Part shown: one piece after another, positions 436-8,770 of the stretch
Layout: each line of letters begins with the position of its first letter
Numbering within the stretch: position 1 is the stretch's first letter
Assembly: GCA_017856545.1 (NCBI GenBank)
Contig: JAFMEV010000006.1
Coordinates: 1 to 37,074 of the forward strand
Source of the DNA: Chitinophagaceae bacterium
GTDB lineage: Bacteria > Bacteroidota > Bacteroidia > Chitinophagales > Chitinophagaceae
DNA: 37,074 bases
Direction: 5' to 3'
The notes under the pieces: model-generated
Database searches by the model: none
Seen by the model: the letters and a program-made list of their open reading frames with translations, nothing else
What the model was told of the DNA's origin: nothing
Position numbers and translations under genes: made by a program

Positions 436-443
436 AAAGGGAG
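436..443 (+). promoter_or_regulatory. Shine-Dalgarno-like site of the leader ORF
   Basis: AAAGGGAG contains GGAG six bases before ATG 450, a normal spacing. The start regions of argG, argC, argD, argF', argB and the FKBP gene in the same operon are A/T-rich with no such motif, as is usual in Bacteroidota. The leader ORF is therefore set up for translation in an atypically strong way for this genome. Confidence 0.55.
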
Positions 444-449
444 ATCAAC

Positions 450-557
450 ATGAAACAGGACAACTTACATATCTTATCTACATCTGCTTTTTCGGCAGCT
501 GTTCCTGTTTTAAATAACCCTATTAGGTTGCCTCAGTCTTTGCGACGTGGATTCTGA
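450..557 (+). CDS. 35-residue putative leader peptide of the arginine operon
   Basis: The ORF runs from ATG 450 to TGA 555-557. The peptide starts MKQDNLHILSTSAFSAAV and ends PIRLPQSLRRGF. It has no signal peptide, membrane segment or recognised domain. It contains three Arg codons: AGG, then CGA and CGT in tandem at 543-548, two codons before the final Phe. In argG plus argH I counted 25 Arg codons (AGA 18, CGT 5, CGA 2, AGG 0), so two of the three leader codons are minority choices. The ORF is preceded by a GGAG site, lies 96 bases before the first arginine gene, and its stop codon sits inside a hairpin. These features fit a ribosome-sensing attenuator for arginine or charged tRNA-Arg. The regulatory role is inference. 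It could instead be a conserved small protein of unknown role. Confidence 0.6.
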   Translation: MKQDNLHILSTSAFSAAVPVLNNPIRLPQSLRRGF

Positions 558-603
558 TAGGACGAGCAGTTGGCAATTGCCCCTATCAGTGGAAAAATCC
601 CCG
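546..603 (+). promoter_or_regulatory. Long hairpin overlapping the leader stop codon
   Basis: The core stem is CTGATAGG (554-561) with CCTATCAG (582-589), eight perfect pairs. An inner stem forms from GCAGTT (566-571) with AATTGC (575-580), with one G-U pair. An outer stem forms from GGATT (549-553) with AATCC (596-600), with pairs C546-G603 and G547-C602 below a mismatch. The tandem Arg codons lie at the base and the stop codon TGA forms part of the 5' arm, so a ribosome finishing or stalling there would open the structure. GCAATT at 573-578 can alternatively pair with AATTGC at 606-611. No GC-rich stem directly precedes the T run at 632-638, so a classical terminator is not evident. The regulatory logic remains open. 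Confidence 0.5.
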
Positions 604-653
604 GAAATTGCATTCAACGCCAGAAGTGTCATTTTTTTAAATTTTATTGATCA

Positions 654-1193
654 TTGGAACAGAAAATTATAGTTCGTGTTGCCCATAGTGGCGATATTTC
701 TTATGCTAAGGATATTACAGATGAAATGGCATCATCAGCAAAAGCCAGAGGAACTGGTATTGCTAAAAGAAGTCCAGAATATGTAGCAAAAAAAATTGAA
801 GAAGGTAAATCGGTAATTGCACATACTGAAGATGGAACCTGGGTGGGCTTTTGTTATATAGAAGCTTGGCAGCATGGCCAGTTTGTTGCTAATAGTGGTT
901 TGATTGTAGCGCCCGCATTTAGAAAAAGTGGAATTGCCAAAAAAATCAAACAAACCATTTTCCAATTATCTAGAGAAAAATATCCAACTGCTAAAATATT
1001 TGGATTGACAACAGGCTTAGCCGTAATGAAAATCAATAGTGAATTGGGTTATGAGCCTGTAACTTATAGTGAGCTTACTGATGATGAAGAGTTTTGGGCA
1101 GGTTGTAAGAGTTGTGTGAATTATGAAATTTTGAAAAGTAAAGACAGAAAAAATTGTATGTGTACGGCTATGCTGTATCAACCTAAAAAATAA
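654..1193 (+). CDS. GNAT-family acyltransferase, probable first enzyme of the arginine pathway
   Basis: This is a 179-residue single-domain GNAT protein. The acyl-CoA pyrophosphate-binding signature appears as R90-K-S-G93-I-A95 after a V-A-P-A-F strand end, as expected for Q/RxxGxG/A. The C-terminal part has four cysteines, C151 and C154 (CxxC) and C168 and C170 (CxC), which could form a metal site. The start must be TTG 654: an in-frame TGA lies at 648-650, and the next Met (residue 25) would remove the first strand and helix. It is the first gene of the operon, five bases before argG, and no classical ArgA, ArgJ or NAGS-kinase fusion is in the operon. I infer that it acylates glutamate, with acetyl-CoA or succinyl-CoA as donor. 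The family assignment is firm and the reaction is inferred from context. Confidence 0.8.
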   Translation: MEQKIIVRVAHSGDISYAKDITDEMASSAKARGTGIAKRSPEYVAKKIEEGKSVIAHTEDGTWVGFCYIEAWQHGQFVANSGLIVAPAFRKSGIAKKIKQTIFQLSREKYPTAKIFGLTTGLAVMKINSELGYEPVTYSELTDDEEFWAGCKSCVNYEILKSKDRKNCMCTAMLYQPKK

Positions 1194-1198
1194 AAATT

Positions 1199-2398
1199 AT
1201 GGAGAAAGTTGTTTTAGGTTTTAGTGGTGGCTTAGATACCACATTTTGTGTTAAATATTTAACAGAAGATAAAGGACTAGAAGTACATAGTGTCATTGTA
1301 AACACAGGGGGTTTTTCCGAGGAAGAACTTAAAAAAGTAGAAGCGCATGCTTATGCTTTGGGTGTTAAAACACATACAACAGTCAATGCGGTAAAAGGTT
1401 ATTACGACAACATTATCAAATACCTTATTTATGGAAATGTTTTAAAGAACAATACTTATCCATTAAGTGTTAGTGCTGAGCGTTTAAGCCAAGCCTTACA
1501 TATTGCAGAACATGTAAAAAAAGTAGGTGCTAAATTGGTGGCTCATGGAAGTACGGGTGCGGGAAATGATCAGGTTCGTTTTGATATGATTTTTCAAATC
1601 TTGATTCCTGGCATTGAAATTTTAACGCCTATTAGAGATTTACAATTGAGTAGAGAAGCGGAGATTGACTATTTAAAAGGGAAGGGTGTAGAAATGAATT
1701 TTGAAAAAGCTGCATACTCTATTAATAAAGGATTATGGGGAACCAGTGTGGGTGGTAAAGAAACATTACATTCTAAAGGTATATTACCTGAAAGTGCATG
1801 GCCAACACAAATGACAAAAGAAGGTTCTACTGAAGAAATGGTGATTCGATTTGAGAAAGGAGAAATCAACAAAGTAAATGGTCAATCCTTTGCACATCCT
1901 ACAGAAGCTATTCAATATATTCAATCTATTGCTGGCGCTTATGGTATTGGTAGAGATATTCATGTGGGTGATACGATTATTGGCATAAAAGGTAGAGTAG
2001 GATTTGAAGCAGCTGCGCCAATGGTGATTTTGAAAGCGCATCATGCACTAGAAAAACATGTATTAACTAAATGGCAATTATCTTGGAAAGAGCAATTAGC
2101 TTCTTTTTATGGCAACTGGTTGCATGAAGGACAAATCTTAGATCCGGTAATGCGTGATATTGAAGCCTACTTAACTAATTCACAAGAACAAGTTACAGGT
2201 GATGTTTTTGTGCAATTAAACCCATACCGTTTCCAAATAATTGGTATTGAATCTGAGCATGATTTAATGAGTGCTAAGTTTGGAAAGTATGGTGAGATGA
2301 ATACTGGCTTTACTGGTGCAGATGTAAGAGGGTTTACCAAAATATTTGGTAACCAAACCAGCATTTTTCACAATGTAAAAGAGTCAAATAAAAAATAA
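1199..2398 (+). CDS. argG: Argininosuccinate synthase
   Basis: This 399-residue cytosolic enzyme joins citrulline and aspartate with ATP to make argininosuccinate, the penultimate step of arginine synthesis. The N-terminal ATP pyrophosphatase loop is FSGGLDTT at residues 8-15. The conserved STGAGNDQVRFD segment near residues 118-129 and a substrate-binding GLWGTSVGG segment follow in the expected order. The length is normal. The ATG at 1199 lies five bases after the GNAT stop. Its position early in the operon, away from argH, differs from the enzyme order of the pathway but is common in Bacteroidota arginine clusters. Confidence 0.97.
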   Translation: MEKVVLGFSGGLDTTFCVKYLTEDKGLEVHSVIVNTGGFSEEELKKVEAHAYALGVKTHTTVNAVKGYYDNIIKYLIYGNVLKNNTYPLSVSAERLSQALHIAEHVKKVGAKLVAHGSTGAGNDQVRFDMIFQILIPGIEILTPIRDLQLSREAEIDYLKGKGVEMNFEKAAYSINKGLWGTSVGGKETLHSKGILPESAWPTQMTKEGSTEEMVIRFEKGEINKVNGQSFAHPTEAIQYIQSIAGAYGIGRDIHVGDTIIGIKGRVGFEAAAPMVILKAHHALEKHVLTKWQLSWKEQLASFYGNWLHEGQILDPVMRDIEAYLTNSQEQVTGDVFVQLNPYRFQIIGIESEHDLMSAKFGKYGEMNTGFTGADVRGFTKIFGNQTSIFHNVKESNKK

Positions 2399-2415
2399 GT
2401 TCAAATAAAATAGTT

Positions 2416-3396
2416 ATGCAAAAAGTTAATATTGGAATTATTGGTGGTGCAGGTTATACAGGTGGTGAATTGCTGCGTGTATTATTACGCCATCCTAATG
2501 CTACTATTAGTTTTGTGCATAGCTCTAGTAATGCAGGTGAACTAGTTAATAAAGTTCATACAGATTTATTAGGAGATACTGATTTGATTTTTACCAAAGA
2601 AATCAATTCATCAGTTGATGTATTATTTTTATGTGTTGGTCATGGAGATGCTCAAAAATTTTTAGCAACAAATGAAATTGCATCTAGTGTTAAGATCATT
2701 GACCTTTCTCAAGATTTTAGATTGAATAGTTCGGCAAGTATTGGTGATAGAAAATTTGTATATGGATTGCCAGAATTGCAAAGAGACGCTATTCGTTCTG
2801 CTCACCATATAGCTAACCCTGGTTGTTTTGCTACAGCAATTCAATTAGGATTATTGCCTTTAGCATCTAAGAACTTATTAAAAGAAGTATATACTACTGG
2901 TATTACAGGGTCTACTGGTGCTGGTCAGGGATTGTCTTCTACAAGTCATTTTAGTTGGAGAGCGAATAATATTGGGGCATATAAAACATTAAATCATCAG
3001 CATATTCATGAAATTCATCAAAGCTTAGGTCTTTTACAAGGACATCAAGCAGCTGAAGTATATTTTGTTCCTTGGAGAGGTGATTTTACAAGAGGTATTT
3101 TTGTAACATCTGTTATCAGTTCTGATATGAGTATGGATGCTTTATATGAACTATATATGGATTTTTATAAAGACCATCCTTTCACGCATGTTTCTACAAC
3201 TGCTATTGATTTAAAACAGGTAGTGAATACCAATAAGTGTTTTATCCATATTGAAAAGCAAGGAAATAAAATTGCGATTCATTCTGTGATAGATAATTTA
3301 TTGAAAGGTGCAGTTGGTCAAGCAGTTCAGAACATGAATTTGATTTTTGGCTTAGATGAAACTACTGGTTTACATATTAAAGCCAATTATTTTTAA
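2416..3396 (+). CDS. argC: N-acyl-gamma-glutamyl-phosphate reductase
   Basis: The enzyme (326 residues) reduces the N-acylated glutamyl phosphate to the semialdehyde using NADPH. The Rossmann dinucleotide motif GGAGYTGGE lies at residues 10-18. The catalytic cysteine is C137 in the signature NPGCFAT, followed by the STGAGQGLSSTSHF segment and a histidine-rich NHQHIHEI stretch. The size and domain order are those of the ArgC short type. It lies 17 bases after argG and 18 bases before argD in the same transcript. In this operon the physiological substrate may be the N-succinyl rather than N-acetyl derivative, judged from ArgF'. Confidence 0.96.
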   Translation: MQKVNIGIIGGAGYTGGELLRVLLRHPNATISFVHSSSNAGELVNKVHTDLLGDTDLIFTKEINSSVDVLFLCVGHGDAQKFLATNEIASSVKIIDLSQDFRLNSSASIGDRKFVYGLPELQRDAIRSAHHIANPGCFATAIQLGLLPLASKNLLKEVYTTGITGSTGAGQGLSSTSHFSWRANNIGAYKTLNHQHIHEIHQSLGLLQGHQAAEVYFVPWRGDFTRGIFVTSVISSDMSMDALYELYMDFYKDHPFTHVSTTAIDLKQVVNTNKCFIHIEKQGNKIAIHSVIDNLLKGAVGQAVQNMNLIFGLDETTGLHIKANYF

Positions 3397-3414
3397 GTTT
3401 TAAAAAAGTAAAAC

Positions 3415-4557
3415 ATGTCTTTATTCAATGTATATCCTTTAAATCCCATTGCTATTACTAAAGCAAATGGATCTAGGGTTTGGGATGATAAAGGTCAAGA
3501 ATACCTTGACATGTATGGTGGCCATGCTGTAATTAGTATTGGTCATACACATCCTCATTGGGTAAAAAGAATCGAAGATCAATTACATCAAATTGCATTC
3601 TATTCCAATTCAGTCATCATGCCAATCCAAGAAGAGTTGGCAAAAGCCATTAATGAAATTAGTGGTAAAAAAGATTTTCAATTATTTCTTTGTAATAGTG
3701 GGGCTGAGGCCAACGAGAATGCTTTAAAATTAGCTTCTTTTCATACTGGCAGAAAAAAAATCATAGCATTTAAGAAAGCTTTTCATGGTAGAACTTCTTT
3801 AGCTGTTGCAGCAACTGATAATCCAAGTATTATTGCACCAGTCAATGAAACAGACAATATTATCTTTTTGCCATTCAATGATATTGATGCTTTAGATGCT
3901 TGTTTTAAACAAAATGAAAATAATATTGCTGCAGTGATCATTGAAGGAATTCAAGGGGTTGCGGGTATTCATGAAGCATCCAATGCATTTTTACAAGCCA
4001 TTAGAAAAAATTGCGACCAATTTGGTGCTGTATATATTGCAGATAGCGTTCAATGTGGTTATGGAAGATCCGGAAAATTTTTCGCTCATGATTTTGCAGG
4101 TGTACATGCGGATATTTATTCAATGGCTAAGGGAATGGGAAATGGTTTCCCGGTTGGTGCTATTTTAATTGCGCCACATATTCAAGCTAAATTTGGCATG
4201 TTAGGCACCACCTTTGGTGGTAATCCATTGGCATGTGCAGCAGCCTTAGGGGTAATTGAAGTAATGCAAAAAGATCATCTTATTCAAAACGCACAAGAAC
4301 AAGGCGATTATTTAATAAATGCCTTAAGAAATATAAAGGGTGTCAAAACAGTTAGAGGAAAAGGATTGATGATAGGGTTTGAAATGGAAGAGGGTTTGGA
4401 AGATGTTAGAAAAGTATTGTTGAATGATTGTAAAATTTTTACTGGAGAAGCTAAGCCAAATGTCATTAGATTGCTTCCTTCATTAGCGATCACCAAAACA
4501 GATATTGATTTATTTTTAAAAGGATTGCAGCAAGCTATTGCGTTATTGCATCAATAA
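3415..4557 (+). CDS. argD: Acylornithine aminotransferase (class III PLP enzyme)
   Basis: The 380-residue protein converts N-acylglutamate semialdehyde to N-acylornithine with glutamate as amino donor. Class III aminotransferase features are visible: NSGAEANE at 94-101, FHGRT at 123-127, and the PLP lysine K239 in SMAKGMGNGFP. The PLP-aspartate motif reads IADSVQCGYGRSG (D210), where many family members have DEVQ; the glutamate is replaced by serine. The aspartate that contacts the pyridine nitrogen is intact, so activity is expected. It begins 18 bases after argC and ends 10 bases before argF'. Confidence 0.94.
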   Translation: MSLFNVYPLNPIAITKANGSRVWDDKGQEYLDMYGGHAVISIGHTHPHWVKRIEDQLHQIAFYSNSVIMPIQEELAKAINEISGKKDFQLFLCNSGAEANENALKLASFHTGRKKIIAFKKAFHGRTSLAVAATDNPSIIAPVNETDNIIFLPFNDIDALDACFKQNENNIAAVIIEGIQGVAGIHEASNAFLQAIRKNCDQFGAVYIADSVQCGYGRSGKFFAHDFAGVHADIYSMAKGMGNGFPVGAILIAPHIQAKFGMLGTTFGGNPLACAAALGVIEVMQKDHLIQNAQEQGDYLINALRNIKGVKTVRGKGLMIGFEMEEGLEDVRKVLLNDCKIFTGEAKPNVIRLLPSLAITKTDIDLFLKGLQQAIALLHQ

Positions 4558-4567
4558 AATTACTCAA

Positions 4568-5542
4568 ATGAAACAATTTATTAGTGCACATGACGTAACC
4601 GATATCAATGCTTTGGTGGCAAAAGCACTAAAATATAAAGACAATCCATATATAGATAAACAATTAGGTTTTCAAAAAAGAATTGGATTACTTTTTTTAA
4701 ATCCAAGCCTAAGAACTAGATTAAGTACACAGGTGGCAGCTCAAAATTTAGGAATGGAGCCCATCGTATTTAATGTAGATAAAGAAGGCTGGGCATTGGA
4801 ATTTACAGAAGGCGCAATCATGAATGGCACTACTGTAGAGCATATTAAAGATGCTGCACCTATTTTGGGAAATTATTTTGATATGCTATGTATTAGAACT
4901 TTCCCCGGTTTAGTGAATCAACAAGAAGATTATAGTGAAAAAATCATCCATCAGTTTATACAGTATGCAGGAGTGCCAATAGTGAGTTTAGAGTCTGCTA
5001 CTTTACACCCTTTACAATCTTTAACAGATATTATTACTATAAAAGAGTCCATCGCTTTAAATAGTGCCTTACAAAATAAGCGACCAAAAGTGGTTTTAAC
5101 CTGGGCGCCACATATAAAATCTATTCCTCAATGTGTGTCTAATAGTTTTAGTCAATGGGTGAATGCATGGGGAGAAGCTGATTTTGTTATTACACATCCA
5201 GAGGGTTATGATTTAGATACTCAATTTACTCAAGGCGCAACTATTACTCATCATCAAGAAGAGGCATTGCAAGATGCAGATTTTGTTTATGTAAAAAACT
5301 GGAGTAGCTACGAGCCATATGGGCAAGTTTTATCTAAGGATGACAATTGGATGATGACCAATCAAAAATTAGCATTGACTCATAATGCTAAAGTGATGCA
5401 TTGTTTACCAGTTAGAAGAAATGTAGAATTAAGTGATGAAATATTAGATGGCGCAAATAGTTTAGTCACAAAACAAGCCTCTAATAGGGTTTGGGCTGCA
5501 CAAGCGGTTCTTGCTTCCATTTTGGAAGCACAAAAAAAATAA
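4568..5542 (+). CDS. argF': N-succinylornithine carbamoyltransferase (ArgF')
   Basis: The enzyme transfers the carbamoyl group from carbamoyl phosphate to an N-acylated ornithine, giving N-acylcitrulline. The carbamoyl-phosphate loop is SLRTRLSTQ (residues 47-55), and the C-terminal half has HCLPVRRN. The sequence follows the Bacteroides fragilis SOTCase throughout, for example RHPLQS-like and TWAPH segments and ITHPEGY. Residue 90, in NGTTVEH, is Val, at the position where B. fragilis has Pro and Xanthomonas AOTCase has Glu; published swaps at this site, as I recall them, favour succinylornithine when Glu is removed. I start it at ATG 4568 (324 residues) because an upstream ATG at 4538 lies inside argD and adds an unconserved tail. 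It precedes argB by two bases. Confidence 0.93.
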   Translation: MKQFISAHDVTDINALVAKALKYKDNPYIDKQLGFQKRIGLLFLNPSLRTRLSTQVAAQNLGMEPIVFNVDKEGWALEFTEGAIMNGTTVEHIKDAAPILGNYFDMLCIRTFPGLVNQQEDYSEKIIHQFIQYAGVPIVSLESATLHPLQSLTDIITIKESIALNSALQNKRPKVVLTWAPHIKSIPQCVSNSFSQWVNAWGEADFVITHPEGYDLDTQFTQGATITHHQEEALQDADFVYVKNWSSYEPYGQVLSKDDNWMMTNQKLALTHNAKVMHCLPVRRNVELSDEILDGANSLVTKQASNRVWAAQAVLASILEAQKK

Positions 5543-5544
5543 TT

Positions 5545-6348
5545 ATGAGTTCAAGTACAGATACCGAATTATTATATGTCATTAAAATTGGGGGCAATAT
5601 TGTCGACCATCCTGATTTGTTGAAACAATGTTTAACTGCATTTTCAAATATCAAGGGTAAAGCTATTTTAGTCCACGGAGGTGGAAAGATGGCTACACAA
5701 TTAGCTAAGGATTTAAATATACCTCAGCAGATGGTAGAGGGTAGAAGAATTACCGATGCAGAAACTTTGAAAATTGTTACTATGGTGTATGCGGGTTTAA
5801 TTAATAAAAATATTGTTGCGCAGTTGCAATCATTAGGCGTTCAAGCAATGGGCTTATCTGGAGCAGATGCTAATTTAATTAAAGCACATAAAAGAGTACA
5901 TGCTTCTATTGATTATGGTTTTGTGGGTGATGTGGATGAAGTGAATGTATCAATGATCAATCATTTGTTACAACAAAATACAAGTTTGGTGATTGCACCT
6001 ATTACACATGATGGGAATGGCCAATTATTGAATACCAATGCTGATACCATTGCGCAAAGTATTGCTACAGCCATGTCTGAAAAGTATGCAGTTCACCTAA
6101 TATACGGATTTGAAAAAGATGGGGTATTATTAGATATCAAGGAACCTAGTTCTGTCCTACAGCATATGAATAAGGATAAATACCAAACATTAAAAGAAGA
6201 AAAAGTTATTTTTGAAGGTATGATACCAAAGATAGATAATGCATTTCTGGCTTTAGAGAAGGGGGTGAAATCTGTTATTATTGGTAAGGCAGAAATAATG
6301 AATGAATTAATTCATGGAAATGCTGGTACAACAATTACTCAATCATGA
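5545..6348 (+). CDS. argB: N-acylglutamate kinase
   Basis: ArgB (267 residues) phosphorylates N-acylglutamate, the second pathway step. The amino-acid kinase fold is marked by VIKIGGN at 12-18 with K14, the glycine-rich HGGGK at 44-48, and a GLSGADANL segment near residues 115-123. The start ATG 5545 is chosen over an in-frame ATG at 5491 that lies within argF'. Its last four bases ATGA (6345-6348) are shared with the argE start, implying translational coupling. The N-terminal extension that marks arginine-inhibited hexameric kinases is absent, so arginine feedback through this enzyme is not suggested by the sequence. That makes transcriptional or leader control more plausible. Confidence 0.94.
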   Translation: MSSSTDTELLYVIKIGGNIVDHPDLLKQCLTAFSNIKGKAILVHGGGKMATQLAKDLNIPQQMVEGRRITDAETLKIVTMVYAGLINKNIVAQLQSLGVQAMGLSGADANLIKAHKRVHASIDYGFVGDVDEVNVSMINHLLQQNTSLVIAPITHDGNGQLLNTNADTIAQSIATAMSEKYAVHLIYGFEKDGVLLDIKEPSSVLQHMNKDKYQTLKEEKVIFEGMIPKIDNAFLALEKGVKSVIIGKAEIMNELIHGNAGTTITQS

Positions 6349-7436
6349 CAAACCAAATAAATATAGCATCAGCACAATCGCTTCAAGTAAAAGTCAAGCA
6401 GTTGTTAAAAGAATTGATAGCAATACCTTCTTTTAGTAAAGAAGAAAATGCTACTGCAAATTGCATTGAACAATTTTTAATTCAACATGGTGTAAAAACC
6501 AATCGTATTCAAAATAATATTTGGGCGACTAATCTTTACTTTGACGAATCAAAGCCTTCTATATTATTGAATTCCCATCATGATACTGTTAAGCCCAATA
6601 ATAGCTATACTTTGGATCCTTTTTCTGCTATTGAACAAGAAGGAAAATTATTTGGTTTAGGTTCGAATGATGCAGGTGGATCTTTAGTTAGTTTGATTGC
6701 TAGTTTCTTATATTTTCATACAACAGAACATCTCCCATTTAATTTGGTTTTATTAGCATCTGCAGAAGAAGAAATTTCCGGATTAAATGGTGTTGAATTG
6801 GTATTAAAACATATTCCAAAAATTGATTTTGGCATTGTGGGTGAACCAACTTTACTTGAAATGGCTATTGCAGAAAGAGGTTTGATGGTGCTAGATGTAG
6901 AAGCAACTGGAATGGCGGGTCATGCTGCAAGAGAAGAGGGAGATAATGCTTTATATAGCATATTAAAAGATATTGAGTGGTTCAGAAATTACCAGTTTGA
7001 AAAAGTATCTCCCTTATTGGGTGCTGTAAAAATGACTGTAACCGTGATTGAAACGGACAATAAAACCCATAATATCGTTCCGTCCTCTTGTAAAATGGTG
7101 GTAGATGTTCGAGTGAATGAGTTGTATACTTTTGAAGAAATTTTAGCAACGATTCAATCCAATATTAGTTCTTCAATGAAGCCAAGAAGTTTAAGATTAA
7201 GATCAACAAGTATTGGATTAGATCATATTGCTGTCAAAGCTGGTTTAAGTATTGGTAAGGGCTATTTTGGTTCAGTAACTACTTCAGACAAAGCATTGAT
7301 GCCATTCCCCACTTTGAAAATGGGGCCTGGAGATTCAGCAAGAAGCCACACTGCAGATGAATTTATTTACATTAAAGAGATCGAGGAAGGTGTTTTAACT
7401 TATATACAATTACTTTCAACTATTTTTACATCATGA
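6345..7436 (+). CDS. argE: M20-family deacylase, acylornithine/acylcitrulline type
   Basis: This 363-residue metallo-hydrolase removes the N-acyl group late in arginine synthesis. M20 metal ligands are visible: H78 and D80 in NSHHDTV, D109 in GSNDAGGS, the catalytic glutamate pair in SAEEE (141-143), E167 in GEPT, and a late His in RSHTADEF. A dimerisation/lid insert sits between about residues 175 and 285. Since ArgF' acts on an acylated substrate, the likely substrate is N-succinyl- or N-acetylcitrulline rather than acylornithine; this is inference. It overlaps argB and argH by ATGA at both ends, so the three genes are tightly coupled. Confidence 0.9.
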   Translation: MTNQINIASAQSLQVKVKQLLKELIAIPSFSKEENATANCIEQFLIQHGVKTNRIQNNIWATNLYFDESKPSILLNSHHDTVKPNNSYTLDPFSAIEQEGKLFGLGSNDAGGSLVSLIASFLYFHTTEHLPFNLVLLASAEEEISGLNGVELVLKHIPKIDFGIVGEPTLLEMAIAERGLMVLDVEATGMAGHAAREEGDNALYSILKDIEWFRNYQFEKVSPLLGAVKMTVTVIETDNKTHNIVPSSCKMVVDVRVNELYTFEEILATIQSNISSSMKPRSLRLRSTSIGLDHIAVKAGLSIGKGYFGSVTTSDKALMPFPTLKMGPGDSARSHTADEFIYIKEIEEGVLTYIQLLSTIFTS

Positions 7437-8770
7437 GTAAGCTTTGGCAGAAAAACAGTCATGTAGCCGCTTCGGTGGAGTCTTTTACCATTGGAAATGA
7501 CCAGGCAATGGATTTATACCTTGCTCAGTATGATGTATTAGGTTCAATTGCACACGCTACTATGTTGTCTGAAGTAGGGTTATTGACCACTGATGAACAA
7601 TTACAAATAAAAAATACTTTAATTAAAATCTACGAGCGTATTGAAGCGGGTCAATTTAAGTTAGATGCAGGAGTAGAAGATATTCATTCACAAGTAGAAA
7701 TTTTATTAACTCAGGAACTAGGAGATATTGGTAAAAAAATTCATAGTGCAAGAAGTAGAAATGATCAAGTTTTAGTGGATTTAAAACTTTTTTTAAGAGC
7801 AGAAATAATATCATTAAGCAAAGCTGTTCAATCCTTTTTTGATGTATTACAAAATAAAAGTGAAGCACATAAAAATGATTTATTACCTGGCTATACTCAT
7901 CTGCAATTAGCTATGCCCTCTTCTTTTGGATTATGGTTAGGCGCTTATGCAGAAAGCTTGGTAGATGATATGACCATGCTACAAGCTGCTTTTACGGTAG
8001 TGAATAAAAATCCTTTAGGATCTGCGGCAGGATATGGTTCTTCTTTCCCTATCAAAAGAACTAGAACTACTGAATTACTTGGATTTGAAACCCTTAATTA
8101 TAATGTAGTATATGCTCAAATGGGCAGAGGAAAGGCAGAAAGAATTACAGCAACTGCCATGGCCAATATTGCAGATACTTTAGCGAGATTGAGTATGGAT
8201 GCCTGTTTGTTTTTGAATCAAAATTTTGGATTTATTAGCTTTCCTGAAGAATTAACCACTGGCTCTAGCATCATGCCACATAAAAAGAATCCGGATGTAT
8301 TTGAATTAATTAGATCTCATTGTAACAGAATTAAAGCATTGCCTAATGAGATCATGATGATGACTACGAATTTACCTTCTGGCTATCACAGAGATCTACA
8401 ATTATTAAAAGAACATTTATTTCCAGCATTCATTCAGTTGAGATCTTGTATTGAAATGGCTGCTTTGATGATTCAACATATGGAAGTGAAAAAAGATTTA
8501 TTGGAAGATGTTAAATACCAATATTTATTTAGTGTAGAGGAAGTGAATAAATTAGTCTTATCTGGTATGCCATTTAGAGATGCTTATAAAAAAGTGGGAT
8601 TAGATATCGAGGAAGGTAAGTTTACCCATTCTACTAAAATTGCGCATGTTCATGAAGGCAGCATTGGGAATCTTTGTAATGAAGAAATTGCCAAAGAAAT
8701 GAAGAAAGTAGTAGCTTTGATGCCTACTGAAAAAGTAGCTAAACAATTAAATACATTAATTAACCGATAG
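7433..8770 (+). CDS. argH: Argininosuccinate lyase
   Basis: ArgH (445 residues) splits argininosuccinate into arginine and fumarate. It belongs to the fumarase/aspartase superfamily: the signature GSSIMPHKKNPD is at 277-288 and carries the flexible catalytic serine loop. HSARSRNDQ (104-112) and GYTHLQ with H156 match the substrate-binding regions. The start overlaps argE by four bases. The last codons end seven bases before the FKBP gene, so the transcript probably continues. Arg codons in this gene are almost all AGA (13 of 15), useful as a reference for the leader ORF. Confidence 0.96.
   Translation: MSKLWQKNSHVAASVESFTIGNDQAMDLYLAQYDVLGSIAHATMLSEVGLLTTDEQLQIKNTLIKIYERIEAGQFKLDAGVEDIHSQVEILLTQELGDIGKKIHSARSRNDQVLVDLKLFLRAEIISLSKAVQSFFDVLQNKSEAHKNDLLPGYTHLQLAMPSSFGLWLGAYAESLVDDMTMLQAAFTVVNKNPLGSAAGYGSSFPIKRTRTTELLGFETLNYNVVYAQMGRGKAERITATAMANIADTLARLSMDACLFLNQNFGFISFPEELTTGSSIMPHKKNPDVFELIRSHCNRIKALPNEIMMMTTNLPSGYHRDLQLLKEHLFPAFIQLRSCIEMAALMIQHMEVKKDLLEDVKYQYLFSVEEVNKLVLSGMPFRDAYKKVGLDIEEGKFTHSTKIAHVHEGSIGNLCNEEIAKEMKKVVALMPTEKVAKQLNTLINR

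Follow-up and report, generated by a model that had tools for sequence, protein, structure and literature searches.

The leader ORF and the arginine gene cluster

The window, a stretch of 37 074 nucleotides from a Chitinophagaceae bacterium, contains on its forward strand a cluster of arginine genes in the order GNAT-argG-C-D-F-B-E-H (654 to 8770), which is preceded by a short leader ORF (450 to 557). The first gene of the cluster (654 to 1193, TTG start) encodes a GNAT acetyltransferase and scored over the cut-off of Pfam PF00583. The genes argG, argC, argD, argF, argB, an argE-like gene and argH follow on the same strand (1199 to 8770) and were assigned with NCBIfam and Pfam. argC, argB and argH were above the curated NCBIfam cut-offs; argG was just under its own (266.3 bits against 268.2) and above that of Pfam PF00764, and argD, argF and the argE/DapE-like gene were assigned by their best-scoring families, all below cut-off. 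The best match of the argF product, again below cut-off, was the N-acetylornithine carbamoyltransferase type. Judged by gene order and spacing, the GNAT and arg genes probably form a single operon.

The leader ORF consists of 35 codons (MKQDNLHILSTSAFSAAVPVLNNPIRLPQSLRRGF, ending in SLRRGF), with an ATG start and a TGA stop at 555 to 557. A Shine-Dalgarno-like sequence, GGGAG, is located before the ATG at 439 to 443 on the same strand, and AGGA-like sites were found 5' of the leader ATG in several close relatives, yet Bacteroidota rarely use Shine-Dalgarno pairing and the role of such a site in this phylum is uncertain. Tandem Arg codons, CGA (543 to 545) and CGT (546 to 548), occupy codons −4 and −3 from the stop and are the proposed sensing codons, and a third Arg codon, AGG, lies at codon −10 (525 to 527). 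The initial annotation had proposed an arginine attenuator here, on the basis of an ORF with a GGAG site and a CGA-CGT pair near its end, and each of these features was found in the sequence. Its count of the Arg codons in argG and argH together (AGA 18, CGT 5, CGA 2 and AGG 0) was exact, and its suggestion that the leader favours minority codons held over a larger set: AGA makes up 58 of the 75 Arg codons in the nine genes between 654 and 9497 (the arg genes and the next gene), and none of the three Arg codons of the leader is AGA.

A putative Bacteroidota-type −7 promoter box, TATTTTTA, was located at 414 to 421 of the forward strand and fits TAnnTTTR; TAnnTTTG is the promoter consensus of the phylum. 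The transcription start would be expected shortly downstream, before the leader ATG. Of 106 loci, 103 had a TAnnTTTR box at 85 to 200 nt 5' of the leader stop, compared with 34% of shuffled sequences, as had 95 of 98 when identical regions were merged. The leader therefore probably lies inside the operon transcript.

The sequence of the window on its own was insufficient as evidence, because the region folded no better than shuffled sequences (z-scores of −0.53 and −0.82). An ORF of the same type, with at least two Arg codons among the last eight, arose in the same place in 7.6% of shuffles and anywhere within 330 nt in 22%. The significance of the leader and its hairpin comes from the comparison of homologous regions.

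Conservation of the Arg-rich leader end and of the stop-codon hairpin

Of 294 genomes of the family, 232 had a match to the GNAT gene, and 30 loci were drawn from these; the remaining upstream regions belong to the 80 best-scoring of 556 relatives in named records, whose titles read Sediminibacterium, Ferruginibacter, Niabella, other Chitinophagaceae, a few Cytophagales, or Bacteroidetes only. One of the 110 loci (L076) had no upstream sequence and was dropped, and merging of identical regions left 101 distinct regions. This set, assembled by best-hit searches, leans to close relatives, and as the loci are related the counts are not independent and do not represent probabilities.

An ORF with a start codon, with at least two Arg codons among its last eight and with its stop 60 to 135 nt before GNAT was present in 100 of the 101 regions of this best-hit set, as against 7.6% of dinucleotide shuffles; at least three Arg codons were found in 61 regions, as against 1.2%. 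The antisense strand, searched over the whole 330 nt, gave some excess, far below that of the sense strand: 48 of 101 regions (36.8% of its shuffles) with at least two Arg codons and 14 (5.9%) with at least three. The sole exception on the sense strand, L052, has lost both the hairpin and the stop. In comparison with its close relative L053, approximately 80 bases comprising the leader end, the stop and the whole hairpin are absent upstream of the GNAT match at 3001, which is either a natural loss or an assembly error.

Two classes of leader were distinguished. In the hairpin class (75 of the 101 distinct regions of the best-hit set) the TGA stop forms part of the 5' arm of an almost invariable hairpin, within the motif CTGAYAGG...CCYRTCAG, a position fixed in 75 of 75 by the selection of the class. 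These leaders end in RRGF, RRGC or the variants RRSPGC, RPRRIV and RRRPVF. Arg was found at codon −4 in 65 of them and at −3 in 59, and the Arg closest to the stop was at −3 in 59, at −4 in six and at −5 in 10; Arg at codon −10 was found in just seven and is not a general feature. The second class, RRPRI, comprises 23 leaders that end in RRPRI, RRPRL or RRPRH, stop with TGA (14) or TAA (nine) and are without the core hairpin. As this class was defined by CGACGACC, the selection dictates the first two Arg codons and leaves the third free. The third codon encoded Arg in all 23 (CGT 13, AGA 5, CGC 3, AGG 1 and CGA 1), with the stop two codons after it in every case. A codon that always specifies Arg, yet does so in five synonymous forms, argues that the amino acid itself is conserved, and this comparison is the clearest sign of it. 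L052, L085 and L107 fell outside both classes.

The RRPRI leaders (L009, L011, L013, L066, L084, L090, L099 and others) are mostly 37 to 38 codons long, start with TTG and share a conserved HPSL-like motif in the middle. In the clade of the window (23 sequences, window included) the leaders have an in-frame ATG start followed by K or N, with MKQ in most, and are 30, 35, 37, 39 or 41 codons long; their pN/pS was 0.50, and the stretch immediately ahead of RRGF is variable in sequence and can lack up to 11 codons. The GNAT start in the 75 hairpin-class loci was TTG in 53, GTG in 10, ATG in five and unassigned in seven, with TTG or GTG in 63 altogether; in the 23 RRPRI loci it was GTG in 18, TTG in two and unassigned in three.

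The core conserved hairpin (554 to 589, forward strand) was delimited by alignment, covariation and a covariance model, R1, and consists of an outer stem, 554–561 with 582–589, and an inner stem, 566–568 with 578–580. The minimum free energy (MFE) fold of 540 to 640 contained the outer stem and a lower extension (549–553 with 596–600 and 546–547 with 602–603), so that the extended hairpin first described at 546 to 603, with TGA in its 5' arm, was recovered. The extension belongs to the clade of the window; it is weak and only partly kept in relatives. The alternative pairing of 573–578 with 606–611, also pointed out by the initial annotation, is possible on paper and did not survive comparison, both halves being present in three of 75 loci (L002, which is the window, L032 and L033). 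The sequence 3' of the hairpin is also conserved in the 75 loci and reads TGRAAAA followed by a C run. This run, CCCC at 599 to 602 in the window and YCYCC in others, spans bases 10 to 13 past the hairpin, and each of these four positions is C in 57 to 72 of the 75 loci. The run is retained also in loci that have lost the GG upstream with which it could pair.

Covariation was assessed in an alignment (A1) of 45 of the 69 distinct hairpin sequences. Pairing in the outer stem (helix 1) carries little weight, as the search pattern fixed this stem; its one varying pair was UA in 18, CG in 13 and UG in 12 of 43 distinct rows. The inner stem (helix 2) was unselected, and over the same 43 rows its first pair was AU in 27 and CG in 16 and its second GC in 34, AU in four, GU in two, CG in one and unpaired in two. 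Three measures (cells paired, cells with both sides changed, and covariation score) exceeded all 500 shuffles, while the numbers of pairs changed on both sides and of pair types were reached or exceeded in 24 and 27 of the 500. By this alignment the inner stem covaries.

With R1, the hairpin was the only match at E 0.1 or better (E 3.3e-20) in the genome that holds the window, where 48 first-look candidates were scored. An even sample of 117 genomes of the family yielded 35 strong matches (E 5.8e-9 or better, the next following from E 6.6e-4), one per genome, all at 42 to 78 nt from the GNAT match and always before it; with the stricter filters of this search, and with scoring confined to 48 first-look candidates in each genome, weak copies elsewhere could escape. 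As strong matches lay only before GNAT in these 117 genomes, the idea that the same hairpin serves as a general attenuator of other operons was rejected. Among 100 further loci one strong match was found, L186, which belongs to the family of the window, and none among the 90 loci outside it. The share with the hairpin was 75 of 101 regions in the best-hit set, 35 of 117 genomes in the even sample and one of 10 in the family loci L177 to L186. Clade-wise RNAalifold predicted the core hairpin together with small clade-specific stems, and found no structure for the RRPRI class. A further conserved mini-hairpin, GGAYTGGTNNYCC-like and reading GGAGTGGT in L105, was observed between the leader hairpin and GNAT in L012, L022, L026, L028, L078, L093, L094, L098, L105, L106 and L111.

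The initial annotation had suggested that conservation of the Arg codons, the ORF frame and the stem pairs be tested in related genomes. All were kept, with Arg-rich ends in 100 of 101 regions, the hairpin in 75 and covariation in helix 2; loss of the ORF end and of the stem pairs was specifically looked for among the relatives, and what was found does not refute the element. On these comparisons the Arg-rich leader end is the general feature and the core hairpin marks only part of the family. An arginine-binding riboswitch, to which the leader ORF would be incidental, could account for the near-invariant arms and the ACGA-like internal loop. However, this loop varies (ACGA, CCGA, CAGA, TCAA, ACAA and ATGA). 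No Rfam family matched the window or any of 20 other loci at gathering score (three hits at a relaxed threshold, E 0.88 to 3.1), and the Arg codons are kept in the 23 RRPRI loci, which lack the core hairpin, with the third written in its five synonymous forms. A riboswitch of this kind was judged extremely unlikely.

Outside the family, 90 regions upstream of GNAT were compared. At least two Arg codons among the last eight were found in 59 (30.9% of shuffles), at least three in 39 (5.5%) and at least four in 19 (0.5%). At least three were present in 7/7 regions of family f28, 8/10 of f18, 5/6 of f23, 4/5 of f43 and 9/19 of f25, with low numbers in f24 (0/4) and f19 (1/11). The leader ends include RRDRRRVRRTK, CRPARFVRI, RRRVYSPRV, PTRRRP and RRRPFRA. 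The finding is broader than the initial annotation supposed, as Arg-rich leader ends occur in further families of Bacteroidota. Many of these leaders carry a small hairpin of another kind at or near the stop (CCCGTAAGGG in f25 and TATAGGGTTTGACCCTGTA in f28 are examples), and among 51 leaders picked by hand the folding z-score around the stop was −2.0 or below in 10; these predicted stop hairpins may serve as leads. In f25 the Arg codons lie inside the 5' arm, and the stalling geometry is accordingly not universal.

Some of these loci have additional structure. In L211, L216 to L218 and L220 to L224 (f25) two elements follow the Arg codons: the stop lies in a tight hairpin (CCCGTAAGGG in several), and a second hairpin has, on a varying stem, a conserved AGGTGAGTCC-like loop, the GGUGA of which could pair with UCGCC of the Arg codons. 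L219 and L221 to L224 have an Arg-rich ORF end about 234 to 254 nt before GNAT (e.g. LRRRRPMRRR, PTRNRRRF and GLLRRR), which in L221 to L224 is additional to the one near GNAT. A second hairpin with a conserved CCTAYGYGG loop and a varying stem was seen approximately 15 to 20 nt past the stop hairpin in L196, L197, L198 and L200 (f28).

The leader peptides SpeFL and TnaC arrest the ribosome through binding of a metabolite in its tunnel. If the finished leader bound arginine or a related metabolite there and arrested in a like manner, the conservation of its last residues (RRGF or RRGC and the stop), and of length and middle motif in the RRPRI class, would be expected; the variation and missing codons before RRGF in the clade of the window would not, nor would the observation that across families the leaders have only Arg in common. 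We consider such a nascent-peptide sensor very unlikely.

Proposed mechanism and the output step

Two arginine-responsive leaders have been described elsewhere. The available part of PMC6386406 reports that the Salmonella speF leader orf34 is a 34-codon ORF with two consecutive Arg codons and arginine-dependent ribosome pausing, that no Rho-independent terminator was seen, that Rho and CU-rich RNA are involved and that RNase G decides the arginine response. The window leader resembles orf34 in being a short ORF with consecutive Arg codons and no Rho-independent terminator, but orf34 controls ornithine decarboxylase rather than arginine biosynthesis, its peptide has the domain DUF2618, its sensing Arg pair lies early (codons 12 to 13) and not near the leader end, and a stop codon inside a hairpin of the window type is not described in that part of the source (PMC6386406). 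In S. aureus, according to the portion of PMC13009471 at hand, rare Arg codons in the short leader rbfL sense charged tRNA-Arg, as is proposed here; unlike the window leader, pausing blocks the ribosome-binding site of rbf and represses this biofilm regulator, not an arg operon. These two cases, together with the established behaviour of leader peptides, suggest that charging of tRNA-Arg would be sensed by stalling (PMC6386406, PMC13009471, each as far as available).

Conserved Arg codons, a conserved leader frame and hairpin, specificity for this locus and the absence of ArgR (below) all emerge from the comparison of sequences, and on this basis the leader is very probably a cis-acting arginine sensor. 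Stalling of the ribosome at the Arg codons, and the direction of its effect, are proposed by analogy. A leader peptide with Arg among its last codons would be translated just before the arginine genes. Were charged tRNA-Arg scarce, the ribosome would halt at Arg codons −4 and −3, its leading edge reaching the hairpin foot, and most of the hairpin would remain closed. With ample arginine the ribosome would reach the UGA in the 5' arm and cover the whole arm (554 to 561); the hairpin would be opened and its C-rich 3' side (CCCC...YCCCC) freed. This opened, C-rich, untranslated RNA would reduce operon expression, with Rho-dependent termination or RNA processing as the most likely route, and a stalled ribosome would prevent the shut-down. 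The geometry is drawn from S. aureus, where a ribosome with an Arg codon in the A site gave a toeprint at +13 (PMC13009471, in the part available). Counted from CGA at 543 this position is about 555, the hairpin foot, and counted from UGA at 555 it is about 567, beyond the 5' arm; a starved ribosome would thus leave most of the hairpin shut and a finishing one would open it. An arginine-sensing leader peptide is, taken whole, the best explanation and a likely one. The output step as described, in which the opened C-rich RNA lowers expression, is a tentative suggestion.

The attenuators of trp and his operons have a leader rich in codons for the end product directly before the operon, with a hairpin at the leader end. 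The window has a like leader and end hairpin; the terminator/antiterminator pair was not found in its class. A stalled or finishing ribosome that selects between an antiterminator and a Rho-independent terminator would fit a leader of cognate codons before matching genes, and terminator-like hairpins at −8 kcal/mol did exceed shuffles in other groups (RRPRI 5/23 against 7.8%, f25 7/19 against 8.4%, f19 7/11 against 9.1% and f18 6/10 against 24%). In the class of the window, however, none of 69 spacers had one at or below −8 kcal/mol (2.0% of shuffles) and three reached −5 kcal/mol (7.2%), which bears out the initial annotation in its statement that a classical terminator is not visible. Averaged over the 75 loci, mutually exclusive pairing did not exceed shuffles, with a mean z-score of −0.13 for the leader with the 5' arm and −0.01 for the 3' arm with downstream sequence, although some close relatives were better: the leader and arm were good complements in leaders near that of the window (z −1.9 in L002, −2.8 in L032, −3.0 in L045, −2.6 in L046 and −2.9 in L048). 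A classical attenuator appears decidedly unlikely.

Control at translation of GNAT, an outlet suggested initially, was not borne out by the predictions. A stalled ribosome might free a weak TTG or GTG start from pairing; such rare starts are kept in both leader classes (in the numbers given above), and short stems surround the GNAT start in a Ferruginibacter-like group. Yet the predicted cost of opening the GNAT start hardly shifted when the masked ribosome was moved from the Arg codons to the stop, with a mean change of 0.24 kcal/mol over 75 loci; the stop position was costlier by over 0.5 kcal/mol in 24 loci and cheaper in 14. Pairing of the start with the spacer did not exceed that in shuffled sequences (mean z +0.28, n=69). 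On these two values sequestration of the start was rejected, and translational attenuation was considered unlikely. A reading frame continuing at +1 from the hairpin past the GNAT start (547 to 672 in the window) was also rejected: it was open past GNAT in only 24 of 75 loci, with no slippery site seen. The +2 frame was open past GNAT in 11 of 75, and otherwise both frames closed before it.

With regard to the hairpin-gated output, Rho-type termination is preferred as it would fit the conserved C run, the composition of the spacer between hairpin and gene (19% C against 13.5% G) and the lack of an intrinsic terminator in the class of the window; RNA processing, as by RNase G on Salmonella speF, would come next. 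In E. coli tnaC a ribosome at the leader end likewise controls the access of Rho next to the stop, as is proposed for the window, but tnaC responds to free tryptophan, with arrest at the stop. The initial reading of an arginine attenuator with a leader ORF was right in kind, its Arg codons, frame and hairpin being conserved; it was wrong on the alternative pairing, and in the strict sense of a terminator and antiterminator it is unproved.

ArgR and the distribution of the leader

ArgR (PF01316) was detected in none of 40 genomes, namely that of the window and 39 relatives, of which 24 were at least 90% complete and at most 5% contaminated; as a positive control, the same profile matched in nine of 14 genomes, including Bacteroides ihuae. 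In a sample of 296 genomes of the phylum, 110 had ArgR, 124 had the GNAT gene (E 1e-30 or better) and four had both; in two of the four (G473 and G452) the match to ArgR was weak (E 1.1e-5 and 1.6e-7). Across the phylum, ArgR and the GNAT gene are almost mutually exclusive. In G642 and G650 (family f31) argR lies directly before GNAT on the same strand. The best ORF ends upstream of argR (L247 and L248), at −304 and −166, had two Arg codons in eight, as is common among shuffled sequences elsewhere; in G650 the interval from argR to GNAT (L226) yielded no ORF end with more than one. By gene order and leader content these genomes represent a natural swap of repressor for leader. A TAnnTTTG box was seen close before argR in L247. 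On this evidence repressor and leader look like alternatives, in a sample in which the phylogeny is uneven and genomes without GNAT may also lack the pathway.

Leader peptides have been considered in this phylum before. For Flavobacterium psychrophilum, strong clues for leader-peptide attenuation before amino-acid operons were reported, the available passages naming neither arginine in that context nor this hairpin (PMC9723704). Leader-like small ORFs are mentioned for B. thetaiotaomicron in the available part of PMC7366714, and the main text of a paper on a uORF tool, so far as it was available, contains neither arginine nor Bacteroid- (PMC10219788). In open full text, to which supplements might add an entry, no recognised account was found of an arginine leader before an arg operon of Bacteroidota, and searches there aimed at leader peptides gave none of arginine sensing in Bacteroidota lacking ArgR.

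A wider scheme can be drawn from these observations, in which the finishing ribosome would itself be the effector of an attenuator without a terminator: it would open the hairpin that holds its own stop codon, expose a C-rich Rho entry site and shut the operon, and a ribosome starved one footprint upstream would leave the hairpin shut. In ArgR-less Bacteroidota, arginine control would depend mainly on variants of this leader, each clade with its own evolved stop-codon hairpin. As a whole this scheme is speculative and rather doubtful.

The leader offers a testable arginine sensor for Bacteroidota without ArgR, and its hairpin represents a conserved cis-regulatory RNA with no match in the Rfam release searched. 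It would represent an amino-acid leader that lacks a visible terminator and belongs to a phylum with little use of Shine-Dalgarno pairing. The near mutual exclusion of ArgR and the GNAT-type arg gene suggests two alternative solutions to arginine control within one phylum.
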